DNA of 64,000 nucleotides from NCBI RefSeq assembly GCF_000016665.1, contig NC_009523.1:5455501-5519500 (forward strand). Direction: 5' to 3'. The translations under genes and the position numbers were made by a program. Positions 27,237 to 40,006 of the stretch are shown here, piece after piece; position 1 is the first letter of the stretch, and each line of letters starts with the position of its first letter. The notes below the pieces were generated by a model, which searched no databases, was not told the DNA's origin, and worked only from the letters and a program-made list of their open reading frames with translations. The DNA is from Roseiflexus sp. RS-1. Lineage in GTDB: Bacteria; Chloroflexota; Chloroflexia; Chloroflexales; Roseiflexaceae.

Positions 27237-27353
27237 ATTGCTGCCGGGCGCTGATATGGCCCTTCTCTACCCAGCCTGGCACAACCCTGCGCTCACCTTC
27301 TACCCCACCGCCTGCGCGAAAACCAATCAATCATGGTGTCAGGCACAGTTGAC
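27237..27353. other. Junction between chromosomal backbone and accessory island
   Basis: 117 bases between the ruvC stop and the convergent sseB-like stop. No gene, attachment site or tRNA is seen. Base composition changes here from GC-rich to AT-rich, so this is the likely left edge of the island. Confidence 0.4.
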
Positions 27354-28121
27354 TCAATACCCAAACAGTTTCTTCAGGAAAGATTTCTGGTAGATAGGTC
27401 GTGTCGAGTTAATAATATGCTGAGAGAAATCAGAGTCATCCAAACGCATGAAATCAACAATGTCATCTTTTCCCATAACTTCAGAGCTAATCACCCCAGC
27501 ATCACCAACAATTCTCTCCCAATCCCTACTGGCGTCAATGGCTATCAGCAAATGAGGTGGTTCACCACTTTTCGGATTGTAGAACTGTACCAGGTATGCC
27601 CGATTTACGAATTTGTTTTTTGCAAAATACTCGCACAATGCTTTGACCAGACTGGTAGGGTAAACAGCAGGCCGCCCAATGAGGAATGCAGTCTCTTCCT
27701 GGGCAGTGTATCTTTGGTCAGGCTGGAAAATAGACCCGTCTAACATTCGCTCAATCTCTTGCGGAATGAATTCCTTTCCATAATCAGAATCAGGATTTAA
27801 TACAATATGGACATCCCTGGTAAGCTCGAAGAAATCTCTTCCTTTTAGTACTACATATGCCGTCTCAGAACTAATAAATTCCTGTAATCGTTGTAGAGAC
27901 GAAAAAACAGGCAACCAGGCCTGTCCGTTCCTTTCAATTTTGGGGACTTTCAATTCAAAACTTTCCGACATGGTGTTGTTTTGCTCCTCGGAATCGCTTT
28001 CAGCATAGTTAATAATAAAAATGTCTGCTTCCAACAAATCACGATAAAACTGTGGCCTGTAAGATGGGTTCAGCGCAGCGCGCATGAGTGATCTTTCCAG
28101 ATCGTTGACTGGTTCAAACAT
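27354..28121 (-). CDS. SseB-family protein, last gene of the cassette-like array
   Basis: 255 residues. The N-terminal part (NDLERSLMRAALNPSYRPQF, then RDLLEADIFII) and the C-terminal part (YLVQFYNPKSGEPPHLLIAI) match the two halves of SseB proteins (enhanced serine sensitivity), whose biochemical role is unclear. Codon and base use are clearly richer in A and T than in the backbone. The ATG lies four bases after a core-like GTTGAGG on the minus strand, typical of a gene cassette with hardly any leader. Its first 62 bases are duplicated exactly at 30385-30446. Confidence 0.75.
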   Translation of the reverse strand: MFEPVNDLERSLMRAALNPSYRPQFYRDLLEADIFIINYAESDSEEQNNTMSESFELKVPKIERNGQAWLPVFSSLQRLQEFISSETAYVVLKGRDFFELTRDVHIVLNPDSDYGKEFIPQEIERMLDGSIFQPDQRYTAQEETAFLIGRPAVYPTSLVKALCEYFAKNKFVNRAYLVQFYNPKSGEPPHLLIAIDASRDWERIVGDAGVISSEVMGKDDIVDFMRLDDSDFSQHIINSTRPIYQKSFLKKLFGY

Positions 28122-28125
28122 AGTT

Positions 28126-28206
28126 CCTCAACAGTGCCTCACAGCACTGAGCTCAGCCGTGCCGCAGGCGTCGGGTGCAGTAGGTGTGGGGCGGCATTGG
28201 TTTGAG
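28126..28206 (-). other. Possible attC site (degenerate) between VOC and sseB-like genes
   Basis: Plus-strand ends CCTCAAC (28126-28132) and GTTTGAG (28200-28206) resemble the inverse-core and core boxes of attC. Between them TGCC/GGCA, CACA/TGTG and CACTG/CAG-TG-type arms make an imperfect palindrome. It fills exactly the gap between two minus-strand genes. The match is weak alone but supported by better sites nearby. Confidence 0.35.
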
Positions 28207-28207
28207 T

Positions 28208-28561
28208 CTAGTTGCCCTTATACTCAAAGAAGAATAATCCATTTCCATCGATACCAAGTGCAACAAACTCTTTGCCGCCCCAAGGCTTCTCTTCTAAAGT
28301 TCCATGTGGATGTATAACGCCCGTTTGCTTGTATTCTGCGTAGAGAGATTCAATATCGCTGACTGCCACCCTACAAGCAGTGTTTTCAGCAATATTCTTA
28401 TCCTGACATTCCCATAAATGGATCTCTACTGCGTCACGTTTGATGGCGGCATAATCGCCATAGTCGAATACTTCTGTAAATCCCATTTTATTCTTGTAAA
28501 ATTCAAGCGAAGCCTGTATATCAGAAGCGGGGAATTTTGGTATGGCATATCTAAACATCAT
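28208..28561 (-). CDS. VOC-family protein (glyoxalase/bleomycin resistance-like)
   Basis: About 118 residues of the vicinal-oxygen-chelate fold: MFRYAIPKFPASDIQASLEF at the start, KNKMGFTEVFDYGDYAAIKR, AVEIHLWECQD, and the end GGKEFVALGIDGNGLFFFEY. This resembles bleomycin-binding resistance proteins, which sequester the drug as dimers. The start is uncertain: the ORF can be read to 28582, but ATG 28561 or 28558 matches family length. AT-rich, like its neighbours. Antibiotic and stress genes of this size are common integron cassettes. Confidence 0.65.
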   Translation of the reverse strand: MMFRYAIPKFPASDIQASLEFYKNKMGFTEVFDYGDYAAIKRDAVEIHLWECQDKNIAENTACRVAVSDIESLYAEYKQTGVIHPHGTLEEKPWGGKEFVALGIDGNGLFFFEYKGN

Positions 28562-28604
28562 CTTGTGAGCGATTTGTTGCACGGTTATCCGTCTTGATTG
28601 CTAA

Positions 28605-29072
28605 TCATTGAATCGGAACGCAAAAGTCCATAACGTGCTCATAGTAGATCTCATAATTGGGGCGTCGCAGATCGACAGTAAGTTGATGTTGTGGTACATA
28701 CTCAGCAAAGAAACGTCTTATAGTCTCTCCTATTGTAGCCGAATCTTTCTCAAGTGATAGAATTGCATAACGCCCACCTGGGAGTTGTTTGGTGTGAATA
28801 TCTTCTGTGTTCAAGGGCGCGATTTCCAGTTCCAAAGCGCACTCATAACCGATTAATTGTGCGCCGTTGATGTTCGGAATTCCAATGACCTTGAGCGCCG
28901 ATGGGTCGTATCCTTGCTGTCGAGCCCAATCTTTTATATTTTCAAAGCCATCTCGAATTTGGTCGTTATAACTGCCTTTCATTTGTTGTAGAAGAACAGA
29001 CGTATAGACAATCATTGTCGGTGGCAAGTCTCGGATGGTAACGTGTAGAGGTTGTACAACATAAATATTCAT
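28605..29072 (-). CDS. GyrI-like effector-binding domain protein
   Basis: About 155 residues. NIYVVQPLHVTIRDLPPTMI, LKVIGIPNINGAQLIGYEC and LPGGRYAILSLEKDSATIGE fit the GyrI-like/SOUL small-molecule-binding fold found at the C-terminus of AraC and MerR regulators and in DNA gyrase inhibitor GyrI. No DNA-binding domain is present. AGGAGA lies six bases before ATG 29072, which is therefore preferred. The gene follows the core box of the attC-like site at 29138 on the minus strand, as a cassette would. Confidence 0.65.
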   Translation of the reverse strand: MNIYVVQPLHVTIRDLPPTMIVYTSVLLQQMKGSYNDQIRDGFENIKDWARQQGYDPSALKVIGIPNINGAQLIGYECALELEIAPLNTEDIHTKQLPGGRYAILSLEKDSATIGETIRRFFAEYVPQHQLTVDLRRPNYEIYYEHVMDFCVPIQ

Positions 29073-29137
29073 CAAATTCTCCTATACTTGAAATTGAGGT
29101 TGTACCAAGCATTATTGAAGGTAAGATGGCAAAAGCG

Positions 29138-29220
29138 GCCCAACGGTATGTGCTTAAGCCGCTGCGCGGAGCAAGCGCGAAGCGCGAGCGGAACACAGTC
29201 GGCTTAAGCGCGGGTTAGCC
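29138..29220 (-). other. attC-like recombination site
   Basis: On the plus strand the site runs GCCCAAC (29138-29144), GCTTAAGCCG (29152-29161), a 38-base centre, CGGCTTAAGC (29200-29209) and GTTAGCC (29214-29220). The 10-bp arms are perfect. Read on the minus strand, the direction of the genes, the right-hand core is GTTGGGC, which fits GTTRRRY. The AAGCCG/CGGCTT arm pair is the same as in classical 59-base elements of mobile integrons. It separates the GyrI-like gene from the toxin-antitoxin pair. Confidence 0.65.
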
Positions 29221-29230
29221 AGCCGCCCTG

Positions 29231-29464
29231 TTAGGATGATGCAAACTCCGCTATGGCTACCTGCCGCTTCGTAGCAAAACTTTGACGGTGAAGTTTGATG
29301 CGCTCAATCTCGTGCAATGTCTCCACCGTGAAATAACTTTCACCACAGTGGGGACAACTTACCAGCGGAATGTTCTCAATGACCAGCAGGTTATCACCCT
29401 TGCCATAACTGCGAGTCACATAGCGAATGCGCGCGCCTTCTTTACCACAAATGTCGCAAACCAT
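29231..29464 (-). CDS. YgiT/MqsA-type zinc-finger antitoxin
   Basis: 77 residues: MVCDICGKEGARI and PLVSCPHCGESYFTVETLHE give two CxxC pairs of the YgiT-type zinc finger seen at the N-terminus of MqsA antitoxins. The helix-turn-helix half of full MqsA is missing, as in many YgiT-type small antitoxins. GTAGGAG lies just before the ATG, inside the end of the toxin gene region. It follows the DUF4258 gene by 11 bases, in the toxin-first order of MqsRA modules. It ends ten bases before the attC-like site. Confidence 0.75.
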   Translation of the reverse strand: MVCDICGKEGARIRYVTRSYGKGDNLLVIENIPLVSCPHCGESYFTVETLHEIERIKLHRQSFATKRQVAIAEFASS

Positions 29465-29475
29465 AGCGTCTTCTC

Positions 29476-29733
29476 CTACAAACGGTACACCGTGATGATG
29501 ACCAATTTGCCCGTGAGACCAATATTGCCAACCACCGCGATGTCATCGCCTGTTACAGTGTGTCCTCTGACCAGATACTTCCACTCGCCTGTTTGGGCAT
29601 CCTTCTGCCGCTCTACAATTTCTCCTGTGAGAATACCACGCTCTACGTCAAAAATCGTCAATTCATCATCGCTCATTTCTTCTTCGGCGTGCAAAGTCTT
29701 CACATACTGGCGGTTACGAACCTTATCACGCAT
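29476..29733 (-). CDS. DUF4258 protein, probable MqsR-like toxin
   Basis: 85 residues: HAEEEMSDDELTIFDVERGI, TGEIVERQKDAQTGEWKYLV and GNIGLTGKLVIITVYRL match DUF4258, a small fold related to MqsR mRNA interferases. The gene pairs with the YgiT-type gene just downstream. The toxin role follows from pairing and family resemblance; no nuclease residues can be identified with certainty. Toxin-antitoxin pairs are typical stabilising cassettes in chromosomal integrons. Confidence 0.65.
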   Translation of the reverse strand: MRDKVRNRQYVKTLHAEEEMSDDELTIFDVERGILTGEIVERQKDAQTGEWKYLVRGHTVTGDDIAVVGNIGLTGKLVIITVYRL

Positions 29734-29821
29734 TTACTTCAAAATGCGTTGGAACACAGATCTCCCCACACAAAAGATGACTTCATCGCAATTTTACTCG
29801 ATTCAGCTCCAAAAAAATGCA

Positions 29822-29873
29822 GGCTAACTATTGATTATACGAATTCCGCCTTTCTTTTCTCCAAGGCGTCTTA
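29822..29873. repeat. GGCTAAC box and 39-bp dispersed repeat, copy 1
   Basis: GGCTAAC (29822-29828) precedes a 39-base segment (29835-29873) starting TTATACGAATTCCGCC and ending GCGTCTTA. A copy with about 33 of 39 identical bases lies at 31120-31158, also after a GGCTAAC box. The IS5-like element begins exactly at the end of copy 1. Confidence 0.6.
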
Positions 29874-30384
29874 GAGCGTGATCAAAAACTAAAATCTCGG
29901 ATAAAGCCGATTCAGGAGCATTGCGATAGAACCAAGATAAAGAAAGGCTTCGCTTGATTCTGGGTTGCGGTTGTTGCGGCGAATAATTATTCGCCGCAAC
30001 AACCGATTGCGTCCCGCCCACGCAATCGATCGTTCCACCACCCATTGCTTCGGAATAACGGCAAATCCTTTTGTCCAGGCGGTTTTTCAATGATATTCTG
30101 GCGTATCGCCGTGTTCTTTTGCATCCATTCATCTAACCCCTGTTTCTATCCTTCATCCACCCGAATCTCGTGCATCCGCGGCGATCAATTTCGGTCGGAC
30201 GCCCGCCTTTGGACGACGGGGTGATGACCAGCGGCGCGATAGCGGCCCACGGTTCATCGGTCAGATCGGTCGCATCGTTCGTTGGAGAGGATCGACGCGC
30301 ACGGTGCGGCATCACAGATTGCTCCTCATCAGAACGGCATGGTTGCTCTCATAATACCACAAATCCGGATTTCTGATCGCCCTC
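29874..30384 (-). mobile_element. Internally deleted IS5-family insertion sequence
   Basis: The ends GAGCGTGATCAAAAA (29874) and, on the other strand, GAGGGCGATCAGAAA (from 30384) match in 12 of 15 positions. TA dinucleotides flank both ends (29872-29873 and 30385-30386), as expected for the IS427/ISL-type target of this family. At 511 bp it is shorter than a complete element of about 850 bp, and only the two ends of the transposase remain. Confidence 0.75.
29889..30315 (-). pseudogene. IS5-family transposase relic
   Basis: The N-terminal part at 30315 to about 30200 reads TDLTDEPWAAIAPLVITPSS then KGGRPTEIDRRG, the DUF4096 start of IS5 transposases. In another frame, about 30080 to 29889, it reads GFAVIPKQWVVERSIAWAGR, NRLLRRIIIRRNNRNPESSE and AFLYLGSIAMLLNRLYPRF, the DDE-domain C-terminus with the final glutamate (VVERS). 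The middle is deleted, so no active transposase is made. Confidence 0.85.
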
Positions 30385-30489
30385 TAAGATGGGTTCAGCG
30401 CAGCGCGCATGAGTGATCTTTCCAGATCGTTGACTGGTTCAAACATAGTTCCTCAACAGTGCCTCACAGCACTGAGCTCAGCCGTGCCG
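30385..30489 (-). repeat. Exact 105-bp duplicate of the sseB-like gene start and its upstream half-site
   Basis: 30385-30489 is identical to 28060-28164 over 105 bases. The copy includes the first 62 bases of the sseB-like coding region (start codon at 30446) plus the flanking attC-like half. It is cut at one side exactly at the end of the IS5-like element and on the other in the loop of the attC-like palindrome. Full identity implies a recent event or gene conversion. Confidence 0.9.
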
Positions 30490-30526
30490 GGCGTAGCGAG
30501 GCGTCGGCTGGAGCGAGTGGTTAGCC
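30451..30526 (-). other. attC-like site upstream of the duplicate sseB start
   Basis: On the plus strand: CCTCAAC (30451-30457), GCTCAGCCG (30476-30484), a 20-base centre, CGGCTGGAGC (30505-30514), GTTAGCC (30520-30526). The arms pair with one unpaired base, a known attC trait. It lies between the sseB-like fragment and the RelE-like toxin gene. Confidence 0.5.
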
Positions 30527-30538
30527 TGCCGTGCCCCC

Positions 30539-30802
30539 TTATGAGAAGAAACGCTCATAATCATCGTGACTGCCAATCCAAAACCACGTCATAGTATCAC
30601 CCTCAAGAATGCCCAAAGCGCGATAGCCGCGTGTGACTCTCACGGACCAGACATTCTCTTCACGATTGATGCACTTAAAATGCAGAGAAGGATGAAAAGG
30701 ACTCTGCGCCCACAAACGATAGGCTTTCCTGGTGCTACGCTTGATGTCTTCTTCAAGGGACACATAGGCCGTCCAAAAAGATGGCAAGGCGGCCGATTTC
30801 AT
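30539..30802 (-). CDS. RelE/ParE-like toxin
   Basis: 87 residues: LPSFWTAYVSLEEDIKRSTR, KAYRLWAQSPFHPSLHFKCI, VWSVRVTRGYRALGILEGD and WFWIGSHDDYERFF. This pattern is shared by RelE/ParE-superfamily toxins often annotated as HigB-like or unassigned. RelE-type members cleave mRNA on the ribosome, ParE-type poison gyrase; which applies here is unknown. Its start overlaps the antitoxin stop by four bases, the standard antitoxin-first arrangement. Confidence 0.75.
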   Translation of the reverse strand: MKSAALPSFWTAYVSLEEDIKRSTRKAYRLWAQSPFHPSLHFKCINREENVWSVRVTRGYRALGILEGDTMTWFWIGSHDDYERFFS

Positions 30803-31029
30803 AATTGATCATAATCCAGCGGTCGCGCGCGCCCTTCAGCAATTTCCTGCTTAGCGCGGCGTGCAACCGCCACGAGTTGCGGTTGTGTTCGCTTGAACAA
30901 GCTATCCCATTCCAGTTCGTCTTGTAGGTCTGCGAGATACTCGCGCAGATGTTCCACCACCTGGTCTTGCACCGTTTCGGGCAAAGATTCCAGCATTTTT
31001 ATCACCGTCGCAATAGCTGGAGATGTCAT
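30799..31029 (-). CDS. Antitoxin of the RelE/ParE-like module
   Basis: 76 residues, mainly helical and acidic: IKMLESLPETVQDQVVEHLR, ELEWDSLFKRTQPQLVAVAR and AKQEIAEGRARPLDYDQL. The C-terminal region is the sort of tail that wraps RelE/ParE toxins. No clear ribbon-helix-helix is seen. It overlaps the toxin gene by four bases. It is the first gene downstream of the putative attI region and integrase relic, on the opposite strand to the relic. Confidence 0.7.
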   Translation of the reverse strand: MTSPAIATVIKMLESLPETVQDQVVEHLREYLADLQDELEWDSLFKRTQPQLVAVARRAKQEIAEGRARPLDYDQL

Positions 31030-31107
31030 CGCTAAAGCCTCTCTTTCAGTCCTTTCATATGTCCCACACGATTGATTATACGTACCTGCGGTGGTTGAGA
31101 CAAGGCG

Positions 31108-31158
31108 GGCTAACCTGTTTTATACGGATTCCGCCTTTCTCCCCTCCAGAGCGTCTTA
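31108..31158. repeat. GGCTAAC box and 39-bp dispersed repeat, copy 2
   Basis: GGCTAAC (31108-31114; GTTAGCC on the minus strand) is followed by TTATACGGATTCCGCC...GCGTCTTA (31120-31158), the relative of 29835-29873. After it, TATACAGATTCCGAATAG repeats the start of the segment. Since GTTAGCC on the minus strand sits between the integrase relic and the first minus-strand gene, it could be a worn attI or attC core, by inference. Confidence 0.45.
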
Positions 31159-31267
31159 TACAGATTCCGAATAGTCTGCTCCCATGCGCGGAGATGTATC
31201 ATAACCCCCGGCAACCGCTCTGATCTACGCACAACCGCCGACTTATTGTAACACGAGAATTGTAATA

Positions 31268-31394
31268 GAACCAGAACCCAGGAAACTGCCAGACCAGTTC
31301 GCGATGCGCTGCGTCTCAAACACTATTCCATCCACACTGGGAACGTTTATGCGGACTGGTCCAACACTCCATTCTGTTCCACTACAAACGCTTC
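31268..31394 (+). pseudogene. Relic of an integron-type tyrosine recombinase (IntI-like N-terminus)
   Basis: Three frames in succession give the start of an integron-type integrase: EPEPRKLPDQ, then RDALRLKHYSIHTGNVYADW, then SILFHYKRF. Known IntI and XerC-like proteins of environmental bacteria begin KLLDQVR, then a HYS-x-x-TE-x-x-Y-x-x-W stretch, then I-L-F-H-x-K-R. About 40 residues of the N-terminal SAM-like DNA-binding domain remain; the catalytic Arg-His-Arg-Tyr domain is absent. It points right, while the cassette-like genes point left, as in real integrons. The relic ends where a duplicated MFS gene end begins. Confidence 0.6.
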
Positions 31395-31535
31395 TGTGCT
31401 TGCATTCCGATGATCCTCGGCGGCATGCGGCGTGTGCGCCGCCTGTCGGTTTCAGGCGCGTCGGAGCGCCCCAACCTCTGCAGAAGCCAACGGGTGTGCA
31501 GCACGGGTGCGGCGCACGCAGCCCTGGCGCGCCTG

Positions 31536-31542
<7 letters not shown>
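31394..31542 (+). pseudogene. Duplicate of the MFS gene 3' end and its flank
   Basis: 31394-31542 matches 35616-35763 over about 149 bases with roughly 90% identity. The first 75 bases are the last codons of the MFS gene at 34420 (CACIPMILGG...RRLSV in the intact copy). The shared stretch stops at GCCCAAC in both copies, and the sequence beyond differs completely. Confidence 0.8.
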
Positions 31543-31607
<65 letters not shown>

Positions 31608-31937
31608 CGTGCCCATGCTGGCTATAGCGAGTATACAGACACGAGCACCTGGCGTGTCGCCTGGCGTCGTCCGCGCAGGCTTTCTTCTATCGTCTTGAGC
31701 ACGTTTGCTGCGTAGTAGCGTGTGCCACATTGGGTGCATACACCAGCGGGCACATTCTCGATCAGGACGTATTCTTCGGATTACATTCTCTGATGCTGAA
31801 CAGCACTGTTGTAGCGCCAATCTTCTCGCGCACGCCCAACATTTGAATTCACCAGACTGCGCAGCTTTTCGCGCAGATCCGTGGAATGATGGTTGGGCAT
31901 CTTTTTCCCCAGCTGCGTGTTGGGCGACACGGTCAGG
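31608..31937. other. Intergenic region without recognisable gene
   Basis: 330 bases between an attC-like site and the BrnA-like stop. No open frame resembles a known family on either strand. Partial short motifs only; nothing further can be supported. Confidence 0.4.
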
Positions 31938-32204
31938 TTAGCGCTGGAGGTCCTTGTGCGCCTCTGCATAGATGCGGAGAGCGGCCTGCATCCGTTGTTC
32001 GTAGTCATCACCCTGGGCTTTGAACCATGCCAGGACATCCGGGTCAACCTGGATCGTCACCGTGACCGTGTGCCTGGGCAGCCGCACCGTTGCTCGTTTG
32101 AAGAACTCTTCGGTTAAGGGCGGAATATCCGAGGTATCGATTTCATCGTCGGTCATCGCATCGATGCGCGCCCAGTCAGTTGTTGGTCTGGTTCTTCCGC
32201 TCAT
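31938..32204 (-). CDS. BrnA-like antitoxin without visible toxin partner
   Basis: About 88 residues from ATG 32204. DAMTDDEIDTSDIPPLTEEF, KRATVRLPRHTVTVTIQVD and VLAWFKAQGDDYEQRMQAAL match the BrnA antitoxin family, a ribbon-helix-helix protein that normally follows a BrnT toxin gene. No BrnT-like frame is found upstream (32205-32274). So it is an orphan here, or its toxin was lost. Extra residues up to 32255 can be read but do not fit the family. Confidence 0.75.
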   Translation of the reverse strand: MSGRTRPTTDWARIDAMTDDEIDTSDIPPLTEEFFKRATVRLPRHTVTVTIQVDPDVLAWFKAQGDDYEQRMQAALRIYAEAHKDLQR

Positions 32205-32274
32205 CCCACTCAAATCGCACAGGTGCAGTATAGCCGGAGAAGGTGAGAAAGACAAGCCTGTTCACTGGGGGAAA

Positions 32275-32431
32275 TCATCTGATGAGCCAGCACATATCTG
32301 GCTGGCTCCTGATCCTTACACGCGTCTCTTCAACAATCCATAGAAGGTGTTCAAGCGGCTTACTGGAAAGCAGTGGCATCAGATGCTCAATGCCCTCAAG
32401 AACACAGACTCTCGTCAATCTTGAACATCAT
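32275..32431 (-). pseudogene. DUF5615 PIN-like toxin relic
   Basis: Starting nine bases after the DUF433 stop, the minus strand reads MMFKIDESLCS then a stop; the family begins M-FK-DENLP. Further on another frame reads EGIEHLMPLLSSKPLEHLLW and IVEETRVRIR, which is the C-terminal end of DUF5615 toxins, to the stop at 32275. The central part with the acidic catalytic residues is deleted. The normal partner, the DUF433 antitoxin, is intact. Confidence 0.65.
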
Positions 32432-32439
32432 CGCGTTGT

Positions 32440-32895
<456 letters not shown>

Positions 32896-33014
32896 GCCCA
32901 ACGCCAGGCATCAGCCGTGCGTGGAAGAGTGCCCGGCAACGCACGGGCGGTCGGCACACGCACAACGTTCCAGATCACCCTGAGACCGCGCGTCGGCTGC
33001 ATGCGGTGTTGGGC
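32896..33014. other. attC-like recombination site with long centre
   Basis: GCCCAAC (32896-32902), GCATCAGCCG (32908-32917), a 76-base centre, CGGCTGCATGC (32994-33004), GTTGGGC (33008-33014). Both boxes fit the attC consensus exactly. The arms pair fully except for one unpaired base, as expected for single-strand-recognised attC sites. This is the best site of the set. Confidence 0.72.
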
Positions 33015-33429
33015 GACCAGGCATGATGAGGGCCGACCCGAAGGGAGCGGAACGACTCCGGCGCATCGTGACACTTTGGCTTGTCAGTTCCGGGCGTGCT
33101 ATATCGGGAAGTGCATCCGTGGTTCCGGGTTAGTGCGGTGCCGGGCTGGGATGACCATTTGTGGTATGGTTGTCCCGTTATGCGCACGTCCGGGGTGTGC
33201 AGAGGCTGGCGCCGTTCGCAGTTGCAACGTGCCGTGTTCGGGGCGATGTGCAATGTCAGCCGACCAGCGCACCAGGAAAATCTTCCCTATGAACTCAGGA
33301 TCTTTCTCCCTTGCTCCTGAATAATGGTTTGATGTATTATGTGAGACATCTCCGCAATTGCCCTTACCAGCGTCTGTTGAACGTCATGCTTCGATATTGA
33401 GCGCTTAATGGTTCCAATAGGAGGTTGTT
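33015..33429. other. Non-coding stretch before the beta-propeller gene
   Basis: 415 bases. An open frame runs through it on the plus strand, but its composition (many Arg, Cys, Gly) looks like shadow coding and no family is recognised. The last 20 bases hold the AGGAGG ribosome site of the next gene. A TATTAT at about 33336 could be a -10. Confidence 0.4.
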
Positions 33430-34363
33430 ATGACGTGGAGTACGCAAAGCCCCCCCGTTAGTCTTTGACTACAACGATCCGCCGTCTTACACACCCGCTT
33501 ATGATCCTGGTGGCTACCGCATCAAGAGCGTTTCGGTCCACGCGACAGGCCTCAACTTGCCGGGCCACATGGCGATTACTCCTGATCGTCGTGTTCTGGT
33601 GAGCGAGTTTGGTGCAGGTATTATTCGTGATGTCACAGAGCCGGGCGATTATCGCAATCCGACCGTGCGTCGCTATGCCTGGAATCTCAAGAATCCCGGC
33701 AGCATCCAACCCATCACTGATGGTCGTATCCTGGTTGCCGATGCCGGTGCTGGCGCGATTGTGGACGTCAGTGAACCGGGCGAAGTAACAGCCAGAGACG
33801 TGCTATACGAAGGCATCTCCCACCCGTATAGCTTGGTGGAATTCCGGCAGCGCCTTCTGGTGTCCTTCTCGGACAACCTAATGGTGGGCATGGCCGAGAT
33901 CAAACCCGGTGGTCGTTACTTACCAGAAGATGTTTTCGTTCATGGCTTTCCCGTAGTGAAGACCCTGGAGCCATATCCTGCATTGCTTGGGTGTGGTGGC
34001 AGCTGGGTTGGCATGATCCTTGATGATCGACTCGTTCTTGCACATTCAGCACTCGGCGCAATTTTCGATGTTACTGCAGGTGGGATCTTTGATGAGCTGC
34101 GCGCCTCACGCTATACGTGGGGGCTGACACTCCCCTTGGGTATGACCGTTGACCCTGTGGATGGCAACCTCTACGTGACCGAGCGCGGCACGGGCGTTAT
34201 CAAACGCATTCCCAAGGTCGGAGGTTATGCTCGCTTTGCAGAAACGTTCATCGCCGGGTTTGCCGAGCCAAGCTGTATTCGCTTTATGCCGGACGGAACG
34301 GAAGCATATGTGTGTGACAGATCCTGGAATGCTGTCTACCGATTAGAGCTTGAGCGTCGATAG
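33430..34363 (+). pseudogene. NHL-like beta-propeller protein with a frameshift in a C7 run
   Basis: AGGAGG six bases before ATG 33430 gives MTWSTQSPP, which then hits a stop. If the run of seven C at 33450-33456 had six, the frame continues as PLVFDYNDPPSYTPAYDPGG and on through 300 more residues to 34363. The body has repeated blades (GRILVADAGAGAIVDVSEPG, NLYVTERGTGVIKRIPKVGG) of an NHL or SMP-30-like six-bladed propeller, with no signal peptide. It may bind a ligand or lactone; role unknown. The shift may be a real inactivation, phase variation or a sequencing error. A shorter protein from TTG 33557 is possible. Confidence 0.65.
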
Positions 34364-34373
34364 TTGAGGGAAA

Positions 34374-34400
34374 GCGCTCACAGGGCGGTCCTGTGAGCGC
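34374..34400. terminator. Hairpin between beta-propeller and MFS genes
   Basis: GCGCTCACAGG (34374-34384), loop GCGGT, CCTGTGAGCGC (34390-34400): a perfect 11-bp stem ten bases after the upstream stop codon. No T tract. It covers a GTG at 34393 that might otherwise be taken as the MFS start. Confidence 0.55.
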
Positions 34401-34419
34401 CTTCTACATTGTCGTGCCA

Positions 34420-35688
34420 ATGAAGCTTCTTTCCGACACAGCACGGGAACGGTCGGTTTGGGCCAATCGTGATTTTTTGTATCTCTGGGGCGCCACTGTC
34501 ATCAGCCAGCTTGGCACACAGATCACCTTTCTCGGGCTGCCGTTCCTCGCCGTCACAATGCTGAACGCCACTCCGCTAACCAGCGTGCTGGCGACGCTTG
34601 GCTGGGTGCCAGTGGTCGCGCTGGGGTTCGTCGCCGGGGCGATCATCGACCGTGGTCGCCGGCAACCGGTGTTGATCTGGTGCGATGTGGCGCGGGCAGT
34701 GGTGCTGCTGACCATCCCGATCGCCTGCCTGTTCGGCGGGCTTTCGCTCTGGCAGCTCTATGCAGTGGTGCTGCTGACGGGCGTGTTCAGCACCTTTTTC
34801 GACACGGCCTACCAGGCGCGCGTGCCCTCCCTGGTGCCCGCCGGGCAGCTGGTTGCGGCTAACAGCGGGCTTGAGATCGCCCAGTCGGGCACCCGCATCG
34901 TCGGTCCCGGGCTGGCGGGCGCGTTGATTGCGTTGCTCACCGCGCCGCTGGCGATCCTGCTCGACGCTCTGAGCTATCTCCTCTCGGCCTTGCTGCTCCT
35001 GGGCATCCGCGCGCCGGAAACGGTGTCCGACATGCCGCCGTTGGGGACACGCGCCAACCGACCCTTGCGCGTGGACATCAAAGAAGGGCTGGTGTTCTTC
35101 TGGCGCGAGCCATTGCTGCGCTCACTGGTGGGATGTACGGTGCTGATGAGTGTTGGCTGGGCGCTGGTCGAGGGCATTTTTCTGTTCTACCTCATCCGCA
35201 CGCTGGGGCTTGACGCGGGGCTGACCGGTGTGATCTTCAGCGTCGGCAACGTGGGGTTGCTGGTCGCCGCCGCCGTGACCGGGCGCCTGGTTGGGCGCTG
35301 GGGGTTGGGACCGGTGGTGGGGAGCGCAGTGGTGCTGCACGCTGGTGGCATCCTGCTGATCGCGCTAGCGCCGCTGGCGCCGTTGCCCTTCCTGATCACA
35401 GGCTATCTGGTGCGGGCAGCGGCAGTGGTGGCCTACAACATCAGCCAGGTGACGATACGCCAGTGCGTCACGCCATCACAGATGCTCGGGCGCGTCACCG
35501 CGACGGCCCGGGTGATTAGCTGGTCGAGCATTCCCAGCGGGCTGATCATCGGCGGTCTGCTGGCGACAGCCATCGGGCTTCAAACAACAATCTGGACAGG
35601 GGCGCTCCTCAGTTGCTGTGCTTGCATTCCGATGATCCTCGGCGGTGTGTGGCGAGTGCGCCGCCTGTCGGTTCCGAGCGCGTTGTAG
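34420..35688 (+). CDS. MFS transporter (EntS-like exporter group)
   Basis: About 422 residues and 12 predicted helices. RERSVWANRDFLYLWGATVI, GAIIDRGRRQPVLIWCDVAR (the loop 2-3 motif) and QSGTRIVGPGLAGALIALLT place it in the MFS_3 group of drug and siderophore exporters. ATG 34420 is preferred because the GTG at 34393 lies inside the hairpin. No obvious ribosome site precedes either start. GC content is higher than in the nearby cassette genes. Its last 75 bases and flank are duplicated at 31394-31542. Substrate unknown. Confidence 0.75.
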   Translation: MKLLSDTARERSVWANRDFLYLWGATVISQLGTQITFLGLPFLAVTMLNATPLTSVLATLGWVPVVALGFVAGAIIDRGRRQPVLIWCDVARAVVLLTIPIACLFGGLSLWQLYAVVLLTGVFSTFFDTAYQARVPSLVPAGQLVAANSGLEIAQSGTRIVGPGLAGALIALLTAPLAILLDALSYLLSALLLLGIRAPETVSDMPPLGTRANRPLRVDIKEGLVFFWREPLLRSLVGCTVLMSVGWALVEGIFLFYLIRTLGLDAGLTGVIFSVGNVGLLVAAAVTGRLVGRWGLGPVVGSAVVLHAGGILLIALAPLAPLPFLITGYLVRAAAVVAYNISQVTIRQCVTPSQMLGRVTATARVISWSSIPSGLIIGGLLATAIGLQTTIWTGALLSCCACIPMILGGVWRVRRLSVPSAL

Positions 35689-35756
35689 CGCCCCAACCTC
35701 TGCAGAAGCCAACGGGTGTGCAGCACGGGTGCGGCGCACGCAGCCCTGGCGCGCCT

Positions 35757-35824
35757 GCCCAACGGTCGGGTTCAGCTTCACACGGAGCGATGCGGAGCGC
35801 GTCGGGTTCATGCCGGTGTTGGGC
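35757..35824. other. Possible attC-like site after the MFS gene
   Basis: Perfect boxes GCCCAAC (35757-35763) and GTTGGGC (35818-35824) are 54 bases apart. The inner arms are poor: GTCGGGTTCA occurs twice as a direct rather than an inverted repeat. It may be a degraded or hybrid site. The sequence left of GCCCAAC is the one shared with 31394-31542. Confidence 0.4.
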
Positions 35825-35929
35825 CGCTGATCGTCGCCCGGCGCGGACTGCAATTCCCCCACGCCGGGCGAATCCGTCATCTGGTGCGCTCACCTCACCG
35901 CCGACCTCGTGCCGCAGGGCAGCGGTAAC

Positions 35930-36112
35930 GTCCAGCAGCCAGGGGTGAAGCTGACACCCCGTGGCATTGACCGTCGGGGCAAGGGCAGCCACGCTCACGT
36001 TGTCGGGGGCTTCGGCGATCACGCAGGCATTGGTTTCGTCGAAAGCAGAGTAAAAGGCTTCCAGGGCGCCACCCACCGATTTGATTGCCTTCTCAATCGC
36101 CGCGCGTCTGAA
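35930..36112 (-). pseudogene. GYD-domain protein fragment
   Basis: On the minus strand FRRAAIEKAIKSVGGALEAF, YSAFDETNACVIAEAPDNVS and VAALAPTVNATG match the middle and end of small GYD-domain proteins (about 95 residues). A stop codon lies directly before the fragment (36113-36115), and the N-terminal part with the family GYD motif is missing. After VNATG the frame leaves the family pattern. GYD proteins are of unknown function. Confidence 0.6.
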
Positions 36113-36197
36113 TCATTCGCTTGCAACCGGTCCCTGAGAGAACGTGGCTTGAGAAAGGGAAGCAGTTGAGCCCGCGTCCGGATATGGAAATGTCAGT

Positions 36198-36749
36198 TCA
36201 TTTCCATGTCGCAATGCGGGAAATGCGGACGTCACGCGGAAGATAACTGACCTGAATGTGATCACCCGCTTCCGCAACCTTGCGAGGGTTCGAGTCATCC
36301 ATTCGTTCTTTGATGATAAAGTCATCCCGAAACTGATAGTAGACATAAAAGTCTGTATCATTTCCTCCCCCCAGGCCTGTCATTTCAAAAAAGACAACGC
36401 GGGCCTGGCAGAGGATGCCATGCTCCCGATACTCGCGCTCGCACGTCGCCCTGACAGATCTTTCACGATGCCAACCAGCCAGAATCCACCACGCGGCCCA
36501 ACCGAGCAAAATCCCGGCAGCACCACGCAAAAGCGTGATTTCCCAGCCAGATTTCCCGACGCCGTCAGCAAGCGCCAGTCCAAGCATGATGACAGCCAGC
36601 AATCCGACAAGCATCCCAAAAAGAAATACGGTGAAACTGGAAAACTTCAGCGGCTTCCCCGCTTCAAAGACGGGAGTCTGTCCAATTCGTCTCCGAAGCT
36701 CCTCAGGCACATGGTAAGCGTACTGAACCTCGTCCCAGCGTCGTTTCAT
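36198..36749 (-). CDS. Small membrane protein, DUF3592-like
   Basis: About 183 residues. Two membrane helices (FSSFTVFLFGMLVGLLAVIM and LLRGAAGILLGWAAWWILAG) are followed by a soluble half with GILCQARVVFFEMTGLGGGN, DFYVYYQFRDDFIIKERM and GDHIQVSYLPRDVRISRI. This layout and the beta-rich C-terminus resemble DUF3592 proteins, whose role is unknown. ATG 36749 is chosen; an upstream TTG adds six residues. Its stop overlaps a hairpin (ATGGAAATG/CATTTCCAT, 36184-36207) that may terminate transcription. Confidence 0.55.
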   Translation of the reverse strand: MKRRWDEVQYAYHVPEELRRRIGQTPVFEAGKPLKFSSFTVFLFGMLVGLLAVIMLGLALADGVGKSGWEITLLRGAAGILLGWAAWWILAGWHRERSVRATCEREYREHGILCQARVVFFEMTGLGGGNDTDFYVYYQFRDDFIIKERMDDSNPRKVAEAGDHIQVSYLPRDVRISRIATWK

Positions 36750-37004
36750 AATCGTTTGATGTCTCAACTTTCAGCCACCACGGGCCAAATCAATGTGGTG
36801 ATCGGTTTCCCATGGTAAAGTCGCCGTCAATCAGCGGCGCCGCATAGCTATCGGCCACCGCCCGCCGCGTGATACCACATCAGTGAGGATCTGCCGTGGT
36901 CTGGGCGTGATCTGCGTTACGCCCGATCTCGATGCGGTACAGCTGAGCGGAGACTCAAACAACGTTGACACGGGGTACTGGTTTCAATGGCTGCCATCCA
37001 ATGT

Positions 37005-37075
37005 TCAATCTCAGGGGGCGGAGACAGCAATCTTCGCTGGCTGTCTCTGCGCCTCTCTGGAGCGACGGGTTGGGC
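37005..37075 (-). other. Palindrome with core-like box after the 37083 gene
   Basis: GGCGGAGACAGC (about 37018-37029) and GCTGTCTCTGCGCC (about 37040-37053) form a strong stem. GTTGGGC lies at 37069-37075, eight bases past the minus-strand stop at 37083. A matching left box is not clear. It is a plausible worn attC site of that gene. Confidence 0.3.
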
Positions 37076-37082
37076 AGCAAGA

Positions 37083-37736
37083 TTAGTCCGTGACGACGGC
37101 ATGTCGCTTGTAGATTCCATTTTCATCGAGCCAGATGAGTAGCCATTCTGAATCCATCCCAAAAAGAGAGCCGCGTTCCGGGCCAGTTATGTAAATCAGG
37201 TCTCGCCCTGTGCTTTGGAAATAGGCGGTATCAAGCGAGGGTCCCAACATGTTCTCAATTTCCGAGCGATGCAGTCCGGGCAGTTTTTTCACGACTTCCG
37301 CAAGCATCTTTTGCCGGGGCGTGATGTCTCCCGATATGTAGTTTGCGGATTCTGGGTCTAACCAGACCTGACGATCAAACTGCCTGTCGTATGACCCTCC
37401 CGGTAACGGAGAGGGCAGCACGTTTGCCAGAACTATGAAAGCAGCAAATGCAGCAAACCCCGCCAAAGCTATCTGCCCTGCTGCTTTTGAACGTGGTCTA
37501 ACAGGGCGCTTTCTCACTCTCGAGATAACAAGCGCAGCGGTTCCCCACAGCGCGAGCAGAATCAGTAAAGGGACAACCAACATTAACGAGAATGTCAACG
37601 ACAATAGGAAAAGGGTTGCGCCGAAACCCGGAACAACTTTCGGGATAAGGAGCAAACCGAAATAGAGAGCGAAGCCTGCGAAGGCAATCCACCATGTTCT
37701 TGACCAGGCGCCAATCATATTGCTCCCCAACGACAT
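37083..37736 (-). CDS. Hypothetical membrane protein
   Basis: About 217 residues from ATG 37736. Three hydrophobic helices (WWIAFAGFALYFGLLLIPKV, TLFLLSLTFSLMLVVPLLIL, QIALAGFAAFAAFIVLANVL) precede a soluble C-terminal domain with KMLAEVVKKLPGLHRSEIEN, MLGPSLDTAYFQSTG and EWLLIWLDENGIYKRHAVV. The last part looks like the small-domain fold of BamE/OmlA-type proteins, by eye only. The frame can be read upstream into the attC-like palindrome at 37725-37785, which I take as non-coding. Function unknown. Confidence 0.6.
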   Translation of the reverse strand: MSLGSNMIGAWSRTWWIAFAGFALYFGLLLIPKVVPGFGATLFLLSLTFSLMLVVPLLILLALWGTAALVISRVRKRPVRPRSKAAGQIALAGFAAFAAFIVLANVLPSPLPGGSYDRQFDRQVWLDPESANYISGDITPRQKMLAEVVKKLPGLHRSEIENMLGPSLDTAYFQSTGRDLIYITGPERGSLFGMDSEWLLIWLDENGIYKRHAVVTD

Positions 37737-37785
37737 ACGCTTCAACCGCAGCGAAGGCGCTGTCGGCTGGAAGCGCTGGTTGTGC
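37725..37785 (-). other. attC-like palindrome at the start of the 37083 gene
   Basis: CCCCAAC (37725-37731), GCTTCAACCGCAGCG (37739-37753), CGCTGTCGGCTGGAAGC (37758-37774) and GTTGTGC (37779-37785). The arms pair well with unpaired bases. The boxes deviate by one base each from the attC consensus. Confidence 0.4.
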
Positions 37786-37789
37786 GCCA

Positions 37790-38507
37790 TATTACCCTTT
37801 ATCTATAGAGAGATCAAGTAAACCCTGGACAAACGAGACTCCAGCCGTAGTGCTCAAGACAGGAGCTCGGAAACGTCGTGGTCGTCAGATGAGTCATTTG
37901 TTCTCCTGTCGTGAGTTGAGAATCAAGAGCGACAGAGTCCACATACTACACTGCCTGACATTGAGTCGCCCAACTACTATCAGACCGACGCGGCTTTCTA
38001 TCCCTCTGCGGAGAGTCAGACCGCAGCAGCCTTGGTTGCCTTCTTCAAAGGGCTGTACTTCGTGAAGTCGAGGAGACAACATGATACATCGTATCACGAT
38101 TGCAATTGACCCGTCAAGGTCATTCTGACCGTCTTTCTGACCAGCATCTTCCACCTCACTGACCGCTTTCTGGCACCACAATTGCGGTGCAGGCAGACCG
38201 CGACGACCGGCCGCCACAGAGAGCGCCCAGACCACTCTGCCCGAAGCGCGTCTGCCCCTCATGGCGCCCCGGTCAGAAGGCGACTCAGGCTCGCCACATT
38301 CCCGACTCTGGCAATGGTGCGGAACAGACTGGTTGCGTGCGCGGGCCGTGACCCGGCAGCAACGCTGCGCGCCCTGCCTGCAGAAGAGGCGCGACAGGGT
38401 GTATCTGGTATTATTGTTTGAAAAAGGTATTCGCGCTCTGCGCCCAACCAGGGGTGCGTAACCGTCGTATCTTGTATTCGGATCATCGTTCCCGCAGAGG
38501 AGATGCC
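37790..38507. other. Long gap, mostly without recognisable genes
   Basis: 718 bases between the right edge of the island and the methyltransferase. One open stretch, 37915-38109 on the plus strand, reads LPDIESPNYYQTDAAFYPSA, ESQTAAALVAFFKGLYFVKS up to a stop, with normal amino acid mix but no start codon; it could be the tail of a lost gene. An extended -10 candidate (TGGTATTAT, about 38407-38415) lies 93 bases before the methyltransferase start. Confidence 0.4.
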
Positions 38508-39173
38508 GTGACTGCCGAAAACTGGTTCAATCCTTTCGACAACCCCGAACTGGTCGCCGGTTATGAAACCTGGTACGAGACCGACGGGCGCACTGCCGAC
38601 ATCGCCGAGCGTCGTTTGATCCGATGGTTGCTGTCAGGGGTGCCGCAGGCGCAGAGTCTGCTGGAGGTCGGCGTCGGGACTGGTCACTTTGCGCGCTGGC
38701 TGGCATCGGAAGGGTATCGCGTCACAGGAGTGGACCTGTCCGCGCCGATGATTGCCGAGGCCGCCCGTCGTGGCAGTGTGCTTCTGGCGCGCGCGGATGC
38801 GGAAGCGCTACCGTTCCCCGATAACGCCTTCGACGGAGTGCTGCTGATCACCGCGCTGGAGTTCCTGCCACATCCCGAACGCGCATTGCAGGAGGCGGCG
38901 CGTGTGGCGCGGCATGGGATCGTCCTGGGTGTGCTCAATCGCTGGCATCCCCTGGCATGGCAGCGAAAACGCAGCGGATTGCCGGTCTGGCAGATTGCGC
39001 GTTTCTACACCCCTGCTGAACTTGAGCGCCTGGTGCGCCGGGTGCTGCATCCGTTCAACCTTCAGATAACGTGGCGTACCACACTGCTGCCCGGACTGTG
39101 GTGGTACTCCTCACGCCTGCCGTTGGGCGCTTTTACCGGTATGCGTGTGCTTCTCCTGAAACAGAAGGGGTGA
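38508..39173 (+). CDS. SAM-dependent methyltransferase (class I)
   Basis: 221 residues from GTG 38508, with AGAGGAG just upstream. LLEVGVGTGHFARWLASEGY is motif I, VTGVDLSAPMIAEAARRG the acidic second strand, ADAEALPFPDNAFDGVLLIT motif II. This is the Methyltransf_11 pattern; substrates include quinones, lipids and small metabolites. The next gene begins four bases after its stop, so both are translated from one transcript. Substrate unknown. Confidence 0.8.
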   Translation: MTAENWFNPFDNPELVAGYETWYETDGRTADIAERRLIRWLLSGVPQAQSLLEVGVGTGHFARWLASEGYRVTGVDLSAPMIAEAARRGSVLLARADAEALPFPDNAFDGVLLITALEFLPHPERALQEAARVARHGIVLGVLNRWHPLAWQRKRSGLPVWQIARFYTPAELERLVRRVLHPFNLQITWRTTLLPGLWWYSSRLPLGAFTGMRVLLLKQKG

Positions 39174-39465: not shown

Positions 39466-39573
39466 CGTGTGCTCAGCAACCTGGATGGGGAGAGGAGGAC
39501 AACTCACAGGGGTAGATCTTTTGGAAAGCCCCTGCGTGCCATCTTCCGTTTCAGGCATCAGGACGCCCAGACT

Positions 39574-39602
39574 CCCCCTTCTCCCCTTGTGGGAGAAGGG
39601 GG
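39574..39602. repeat. Pyrimidine/purine hairpin repeat
   Basis: CCCCCTTCTCCC (39574-39585), five-base loop, GGGAGAAGGGGG (39591-39602), followed by TTAGGGGGATGAGGGGG. The 12-bp stem is perfect. Similar CTTCTCCC/GGGAGAAG hairpins are widespread dispersed elements in many genomes. Confidence 0.7.
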
Positions 39603-39644
39603 TTAGGGGGATGAGGGGGCAAAGGCGCACGGAAATGCCAGGCG

Positions 39645-40006
39645 CTCATGGTCTTTGAATACTTAATCCGCTCTAGCCCGCGCAGGCGGGCTTCGCCTTG
39701 TCTAGCCAAGGGCTCATGGTCTTTGAATACATAATCCGCTCGAGCCCGCGCAGGCGGGCTTCGCCTTGTCTAGCCGAGGGCTTCAGCCCCACGGCTCGTG
39801 CGGTAGAGCGGATTTAATGCTCAATCTCCATTAGCCCCACGGCTAGCGCGGTAGAGCGGATTTAATTGCTCAATCTCCATTAGCCCGACGGCAAGAGGCG
39901 CATACCGGATTAAGTTCTCAATCTCCATCAGCCCGACGGCTCGTGCGGTATAGCGGAATAAATTCTCAATCTCCATCAGCCCCACGGCAAGGGGCGAATA
40001 CCGATT
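39645..40006. repeat. Two 68-bp and five 48-bp palindromic repeat units
   Basis: 68-bp units begin CTCATGGTCTTT at 39645 and 39713, each with AGCCCGCGCAGGCGGGCT. From about 39784, five units of about 48 bases follow: AGCCCCACGG...GCGGATTTAATGCTCAATCTCCAT and variants, at roughly 39784, 39831, 39880, 39928 and 39976. They belong to the same two families as 14144-14400. Confidence 0.85.

Follow-up and report, generated by a model that had tools for sequence, protein, structure and literature searches.

Remains of a chromosomal-integron integrase beside a cassette array at the ruvC site of Roseiflexus sp. RS-1

Does a stub of about 42 codons, scattered over three reading frames, represent the integrase of a decayed integron, and what became of the element around it? 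The question arose from the window, i.e. the whole stretch of 64 kb that was analysed (bases 5455501-5519500 of the Roseiflexus sp. RS-1 genome, which was searched as a single contig of 5,801,598 bp; five-digit positions below are those of the window). A sequence-only reading had proposed that KLPDQ, RDALRLKHYSIHTGNVYADW and SILFHYKRF are encoded in successive frames. All three were found on the plus strand in the order and with the spacing of an integron integrase gene (intI): I-EPEPRKLPDQ begins at 31265, V-RDALRLKHYSIHTGNVYADW occupies 31297-31359 and SILFHYKR follows in the third frame; the final F of the last piece already lies beyond the break. Together they constitute the 5' end of an intI gene at 31265-31391 (+), codons 1 to about 42. 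This agrees with the predicted survival of some 40 residues, the cut being at 31391, where integrase homology stops abruptly. Relative to a related copy at 841 kb in the same genome, called the twin in the following, the start codon was changed from ATG to ATA, and single nucleotides were deleted near 31297 (after KLPDQ) and near 31360 (after YADW). The relic has no start codon and no open frame, is frameshifted twice and is cut before the catalytic domain with its R-K-H-R-H-Y residues; therefore, it is a pseudogene. A tblastn search with three integrases detected no remaining intI sequence elsewhere in the 64-kb window.

Because the peptide pieces are short and lie in three frames, one might suspect a chance resemblance in non-coding DNA. 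This was refuted at the nucleotide level. When 31240-31440 was compared by blastn with the whole 5.80-Mb genome, the region matched, besides itself, an independent intI copy, the twin, with 86% identity over 150 nt (E 9.7e-44 genome-wide). A local alignment of 31268-31394 scored 63, compared with a maximum of 13 among 500 shuffles. The probability of a chance resemblance is thus negligible. Another explanation is that the relic derives from an ordinary XerC/D-like or phage tyrosine recombinase which lies beside a gene array by coincidence. In its favor, the N-terminal SAM-like domain is common to the whole superfamily (PF13495, E 0.014). However, the frame-joined peptide of 42 residues matched only two NCBIfam models, NF011946 (E 0.0057) and TIGR02249 (E 0.033). 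These matches are weak, both models describe integron integrases, and none of the XerC/D models in NCBIfam was matched. The corresponding 45-residue part of the twin was recognized by the same models with E-values of 9e-8 and 3.3e-6, respectively, again without XerC/D. In a BLAST search of a set composed of integron integrases and Roseiflexus Xer proteins the relic peptide matched over 70 integron integrases but none of the Roseiflexus Xer proteins; the best match, in a Chloroflexi genome, had 58% identity (E 8e-18 in this small set).

The twin refutes an origin from a Xer or phage recombinase. It has kept the IntI-specific segment KYPN..EWGWHYL (DALKQKYPNVSREWGWHYL; LKQKYPNVSREWGWHYL), and in a tree it was placed among the integron integrases, split from Xer with 100/100 support. 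The stub is truncated before the additional domain of IntI (patch III region), for which the twin has KYPNVSREWGWHYL. Further, attI and attC sites flank the relic. A Xer or phage origin was thus ruled out by the family models, by BLAST against the Roseiflexus Xer proteins and by the tree, and we regard it as highly improbable. The data support the relic as an integron integrase, as the sequence-only reading had claimed in preference to XerC/D and for which these searches were, in effect, the check; the twin removes the remaining doubt. The exact subtype that may be assigned to the 42-codon stub likewise rests on the twin.

The similarity to the twin is not confined to the coding region. Over 31120-31391, upstream region included, the two are 82% identical (272 nt; 287 columns; blastn E about 1e-75). 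The twin (840635-841291) is also broken, but extends to residue 223. Further intI remnants are located at 560347-560601 and 5003678-5003935. With the window relic and an intact gene at 1.0425 Mb (1042525-1043451; 328.8 bits at a cut-off of 265) the genome has five intI loci, which belong to at least two lineages. The intact gene was considered as the source of the relic and rejected: its product and the twin share only about 45% identity, and the attI direct repeats differ. No intact orthologue of the relic was found in Roseiflexus; within the order, the closest intact relatives reach 58% identity. Relatives of the twin were present in 28 of 56 good genomes of the order, many of them broken.

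Where does the relic reside? It is part of an insertion of about 11 kb (27240-38507) between ruvC, which ends at 27239, and a gene which starts at 38508. In four other Roseiflexus genomes ruvC is joined directly, across 15-110 bp, to the 38508 gene and the island is absent. Besides RS-1, only the genome nearest to it, the sister 629F.7 (a fragmented MAG), has the insertion, i.e. two closely related Roseiflexus genomes have the island and four do not. Upstream of the relic and beside it, an attI-like site was identified at 31104-31170 (+). It consists of a core GGCGGGCTAAC (31104-31114) followed by the direct repeats TTATACGGATTCCGC (31120-31134) and TTATACAGATTCCGA (31156-31170), two copies of TTATACxGATTCCGx which are common to the window and the 841-kb locus. 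The site is conserved beside the 841-kb intI and in the sister genome, as is the region between attI and intI (31171-31264, +; promoter/leader). A second, partial attI in the same orientation was detected at 29824-29873 (+). It is interrupted by an IS-like remnant (29869-30390, +; blastn), which is also present beside the 841-kb and 868-kb attI copies.

The attC sites were located with a covariance model of 21 pairs. It was built from ten aligned sites that follow the attC pattern seen in the intact integron; in the hairpin alignment compensatory changes were seen in 8 of 14 predicted pairs. Genome-wide, 30 sites were found at E 0.01 or better. They cluster at 1.032-1.041 Mb, at 1.112-1.114 Mb and in the window island; the second of these clusters includes four sites at 1111773-1113941 without an integrase match nearby and constitutes another CALIN, a cassette array without integrase. 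The window has seven, all on the plus strand between 28.1 and 37.8 kb: 28135-28194 (weak, 22.5 bits), 29137-29222 (73.5 bits), 30460-30528 (30.7 bits), 31534-31608 (89.4 bits; right of the relic, with 93% identity to one of the intact integron's sites), 32895-33016 (30.5 bits), 35756-35826 (35 bits) and 37724-37787 (36 bits; the last of the array). The sites at 29137 and 31534 were used in model building and their scores are not independent; those of the other five are. The weak sites (22-36 bits) are degenerate and some may have decayed beyond use. Rfam matched no integron family.

A cassette array or CALIN is defined by two or more attC hairpins that point the same way and have cassette genes between them, as is the case here; the genes are typical cassette cargo. 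Left of the relic, all on the minus strand, are genes for an SseB-like protein (27354-28121; PF07179/PF14581), a glyoxalase/bleomycin-resistance superfamily protein (28208-28582; PF00903, E 2.3e-6), a GyrI-like/Cass2 'integron-associated effector binding protein' (28605-29075; PF06445, E 3.5e-16; PF14526, E 3.8e-10), an MqsA-like zinc-ribbon antitoxin (29231-29464; weak match to PF15731, E 0.002, below the Pfam cut-off) and a toxin-like DUF4258 protein (29476-29733; PF14076, E 3.5e-13). The first cassette after attI carries a ParE-like toxin gene (30539-30802; PF24732, E 3.3e-11) and, overlapping it, an open reading frame for a probable antitoxin (30799-31029; no confident Pfam match). Right of the relic, also on the minus strand, are genes for a BrnA-type antitoxin (31938-32255; PF14384, E 2.6e-11) and an antitoxin-like DUF433 protein (32440-32667; PF04255, E 2.3e-26). 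An MFS transporter gene (34393-35688, +; PF07690/PF05977) with the attC site at 35756 apparently lies antisense to the array inside its own cassette. The beginning of the SseB cassette is repeated with 99% identity (repeat D2; 28056-28164 and 30381-30489) and there adjoins two different attC sites, which suggests that a cassette was recently copied within the island. The proposal that the relic sits at the head of a minus-strand gene array is correct for the left array with its attI-like site. It is incomplete in that attC sites and cassettes also lie to the right (31.5-37.8 kb) and a second, partial attI is present at 29.8 kb.

How was intI lost? In RS-1 the stub ends at 31391 and is followed from 31394 by a repeat, D1 (31394-31542, +), which truncates the gene. 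D1 comprises the 3' end of an MFS gene, antisense to the array, and the sequence up to attC; a second copy, 94% identical, is at 35616-35764. In the sister genome attI and the leader are retained up to 31258, D1 begins at the position corresponding to 31408, and no intI is left. Hence the breakpoints of the two genomes are 133 bp apart on the intI side and 14 bp apart on the D1 side. The possibilities that D1 is an insertion sequence, or a cassette inserted into intI at an attC core, were rejected: its left end is about 140 bp from the attC core, inside MFS-gene sequence. An illegitimate deletion therefore fits better. Such a deletion, by joining what was left of intI to the border of a different cassette, would account for an array on both sides of the relic. 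Cassettes point the same way to its left and to its right, so the right-hand array probably was a second array behind intI.

The simplest history has one ancestral deletion, which fused the stub to the cassette edge, and then, in the sister only, the loss of about 149 bp more. On grounds of parsimony the first deletion would precede the split of the two species. Possibly the deletion occurred separately in each of them. The cassette difference at attI described below would then predate integrase loss, and no activity in trans would be needed. The differing breakpoints, 133 and 14 bp apart, are in line with separate deletions, and independent breakage among related strains is known for many intI genes (Nemergut et al., 2008; PMC2426708). 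On the other hand, both lineages would have to fuse one MFS-cassette edge, within 14 bp, to one intI 5' region, and a shared deletion is simpler. We consider separate deletions rather unlikely.

The orphaned attI differs between the two genomes by one cassette. In the sister, attI and the toxin cassette are separated by an additional cassette of about 870 bp; it begins exactly at the attI core and has GGCGGGCTAAC at both ends, the footprint expected of an integrase-mediated insertion or excision. A SLATT protein gene, at first suspected in this cassette, was not supported, the only match being a weak one to DUF2270. If the common ancestor had already lost intI, the one-cassette difference needs an integrase in trans. 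A candidate is the intact integron, which has about ten attC sites at 1032366-1041530. From its attI core onwards, RS-1 and the sister are 96% identical in the platform, while the cassettes beyond differ entirely; therefore, this integron has been active after the separation of the two species. It resembles the island in its attI core and in its type of attC (sites up to 93-96% identical). It differs in its integrase, as detailed above for the twin, and in its attI repeats, which are GACTCTCTATGTTAT and not TTATACGGATTCCGC. The island cassettes may still be moved in trans by this different integron. That the attI of the dead integron gained or lost cassettes after its own intI was destroyed, by way of an integrase so divergent and accustomed to other attI repeats, is a tentative proposal, and we would sooner doubt it than rely on it. 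Should it be true, the attI core is needed and the direct repeats are not.

We infer the following order of events at the window locus. The common ancestor of two Roseiflexus species would have acquired a chromosomal integron between ruvC and the adjoining gene. While this element was functional, its IntI, transcribed rightwards, would have joined circular cassettes via their attC hairpins to the attI core GGCGGGCTAAC, and cassettes would thereby have lined up leftwards, their genes lying on the minus strand. Later, a deletion would have spared only about 42 codons of intI and joined this stub to the beginning of an MFS-carrying cassette of a second attC array of the same orientation. In RS-1 the stub would afterwards have lost its start codon and reading frame, and in the sister the further deletion of about 149 bp would have removed the stub completely. 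The island of today is a CALIN which has retained attI. The identity of the relic, the attI/attC anatomy, the insertion with its empty site, the two breakpoints and the one-cassette difference at the attI core are established by the data, whereas the sequence of events and the activity in trans are proposals. We put the probability at roughly 93% that the relic is what remains of a chromosomal-integron integrase at the ruvC site, with decay, CALIN and history as proposed here.

Decayed intI genes are common and already known. In a survey nearly a third of intI genes were pseudogenes, a fifth of integron-bearing bacteria had more than one intI, and intI was present in Chloroflexi (Nemergut et al., 2008; PMC2426708). 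The relic shares with those pseudogenes a frameshifted and truncated intI beside a cassette array. It differs in that only about 42 codons are left and, owing to the fusion deletion, the array runs past it. Similarly, in the inactivated Xanthomonas integrons at ilvD and in CALINs a fixed chromosomal site is occupied, the integrase is later truncated or lost and the array is frozen (PMC12444791). Acquisition at a fixed site and truncation or loss of the integrase are common to these and the Roseiflexus island; the latter has, in addition, an empty site in four congeners and, elsewhere in the RS-1 genome, an intact integron that belongs to a different lineage. The relic is a well-resolved and well-dated further example. 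Among the papers searched, the only one to mention both integrons and Roseiflexus does not deal with this subject. The locus documents how an integron lived and decayed in a lineage of phototrophic thermophiles (Roseiflexus, Chloroflexota) in which integrons are little described. The insertion site is clean, the sister species represent two stages in the loss of the integrase, and the orphaned attI bears the footprint of a cassette exchange. With the intact integron of another lineage in the genome, the locus lends itself naturally to testing whether cassettes move in trans.

Finally, positions 39500-40000 hold interspersed tandem repeats (about 48 and 68 bp), which also occur beside several integron remnants elsewhere in the genome. 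Two of those at 39500-40000 were called CRISPR-DR28 by Rfam, probably a chance match to an inverted repeat.
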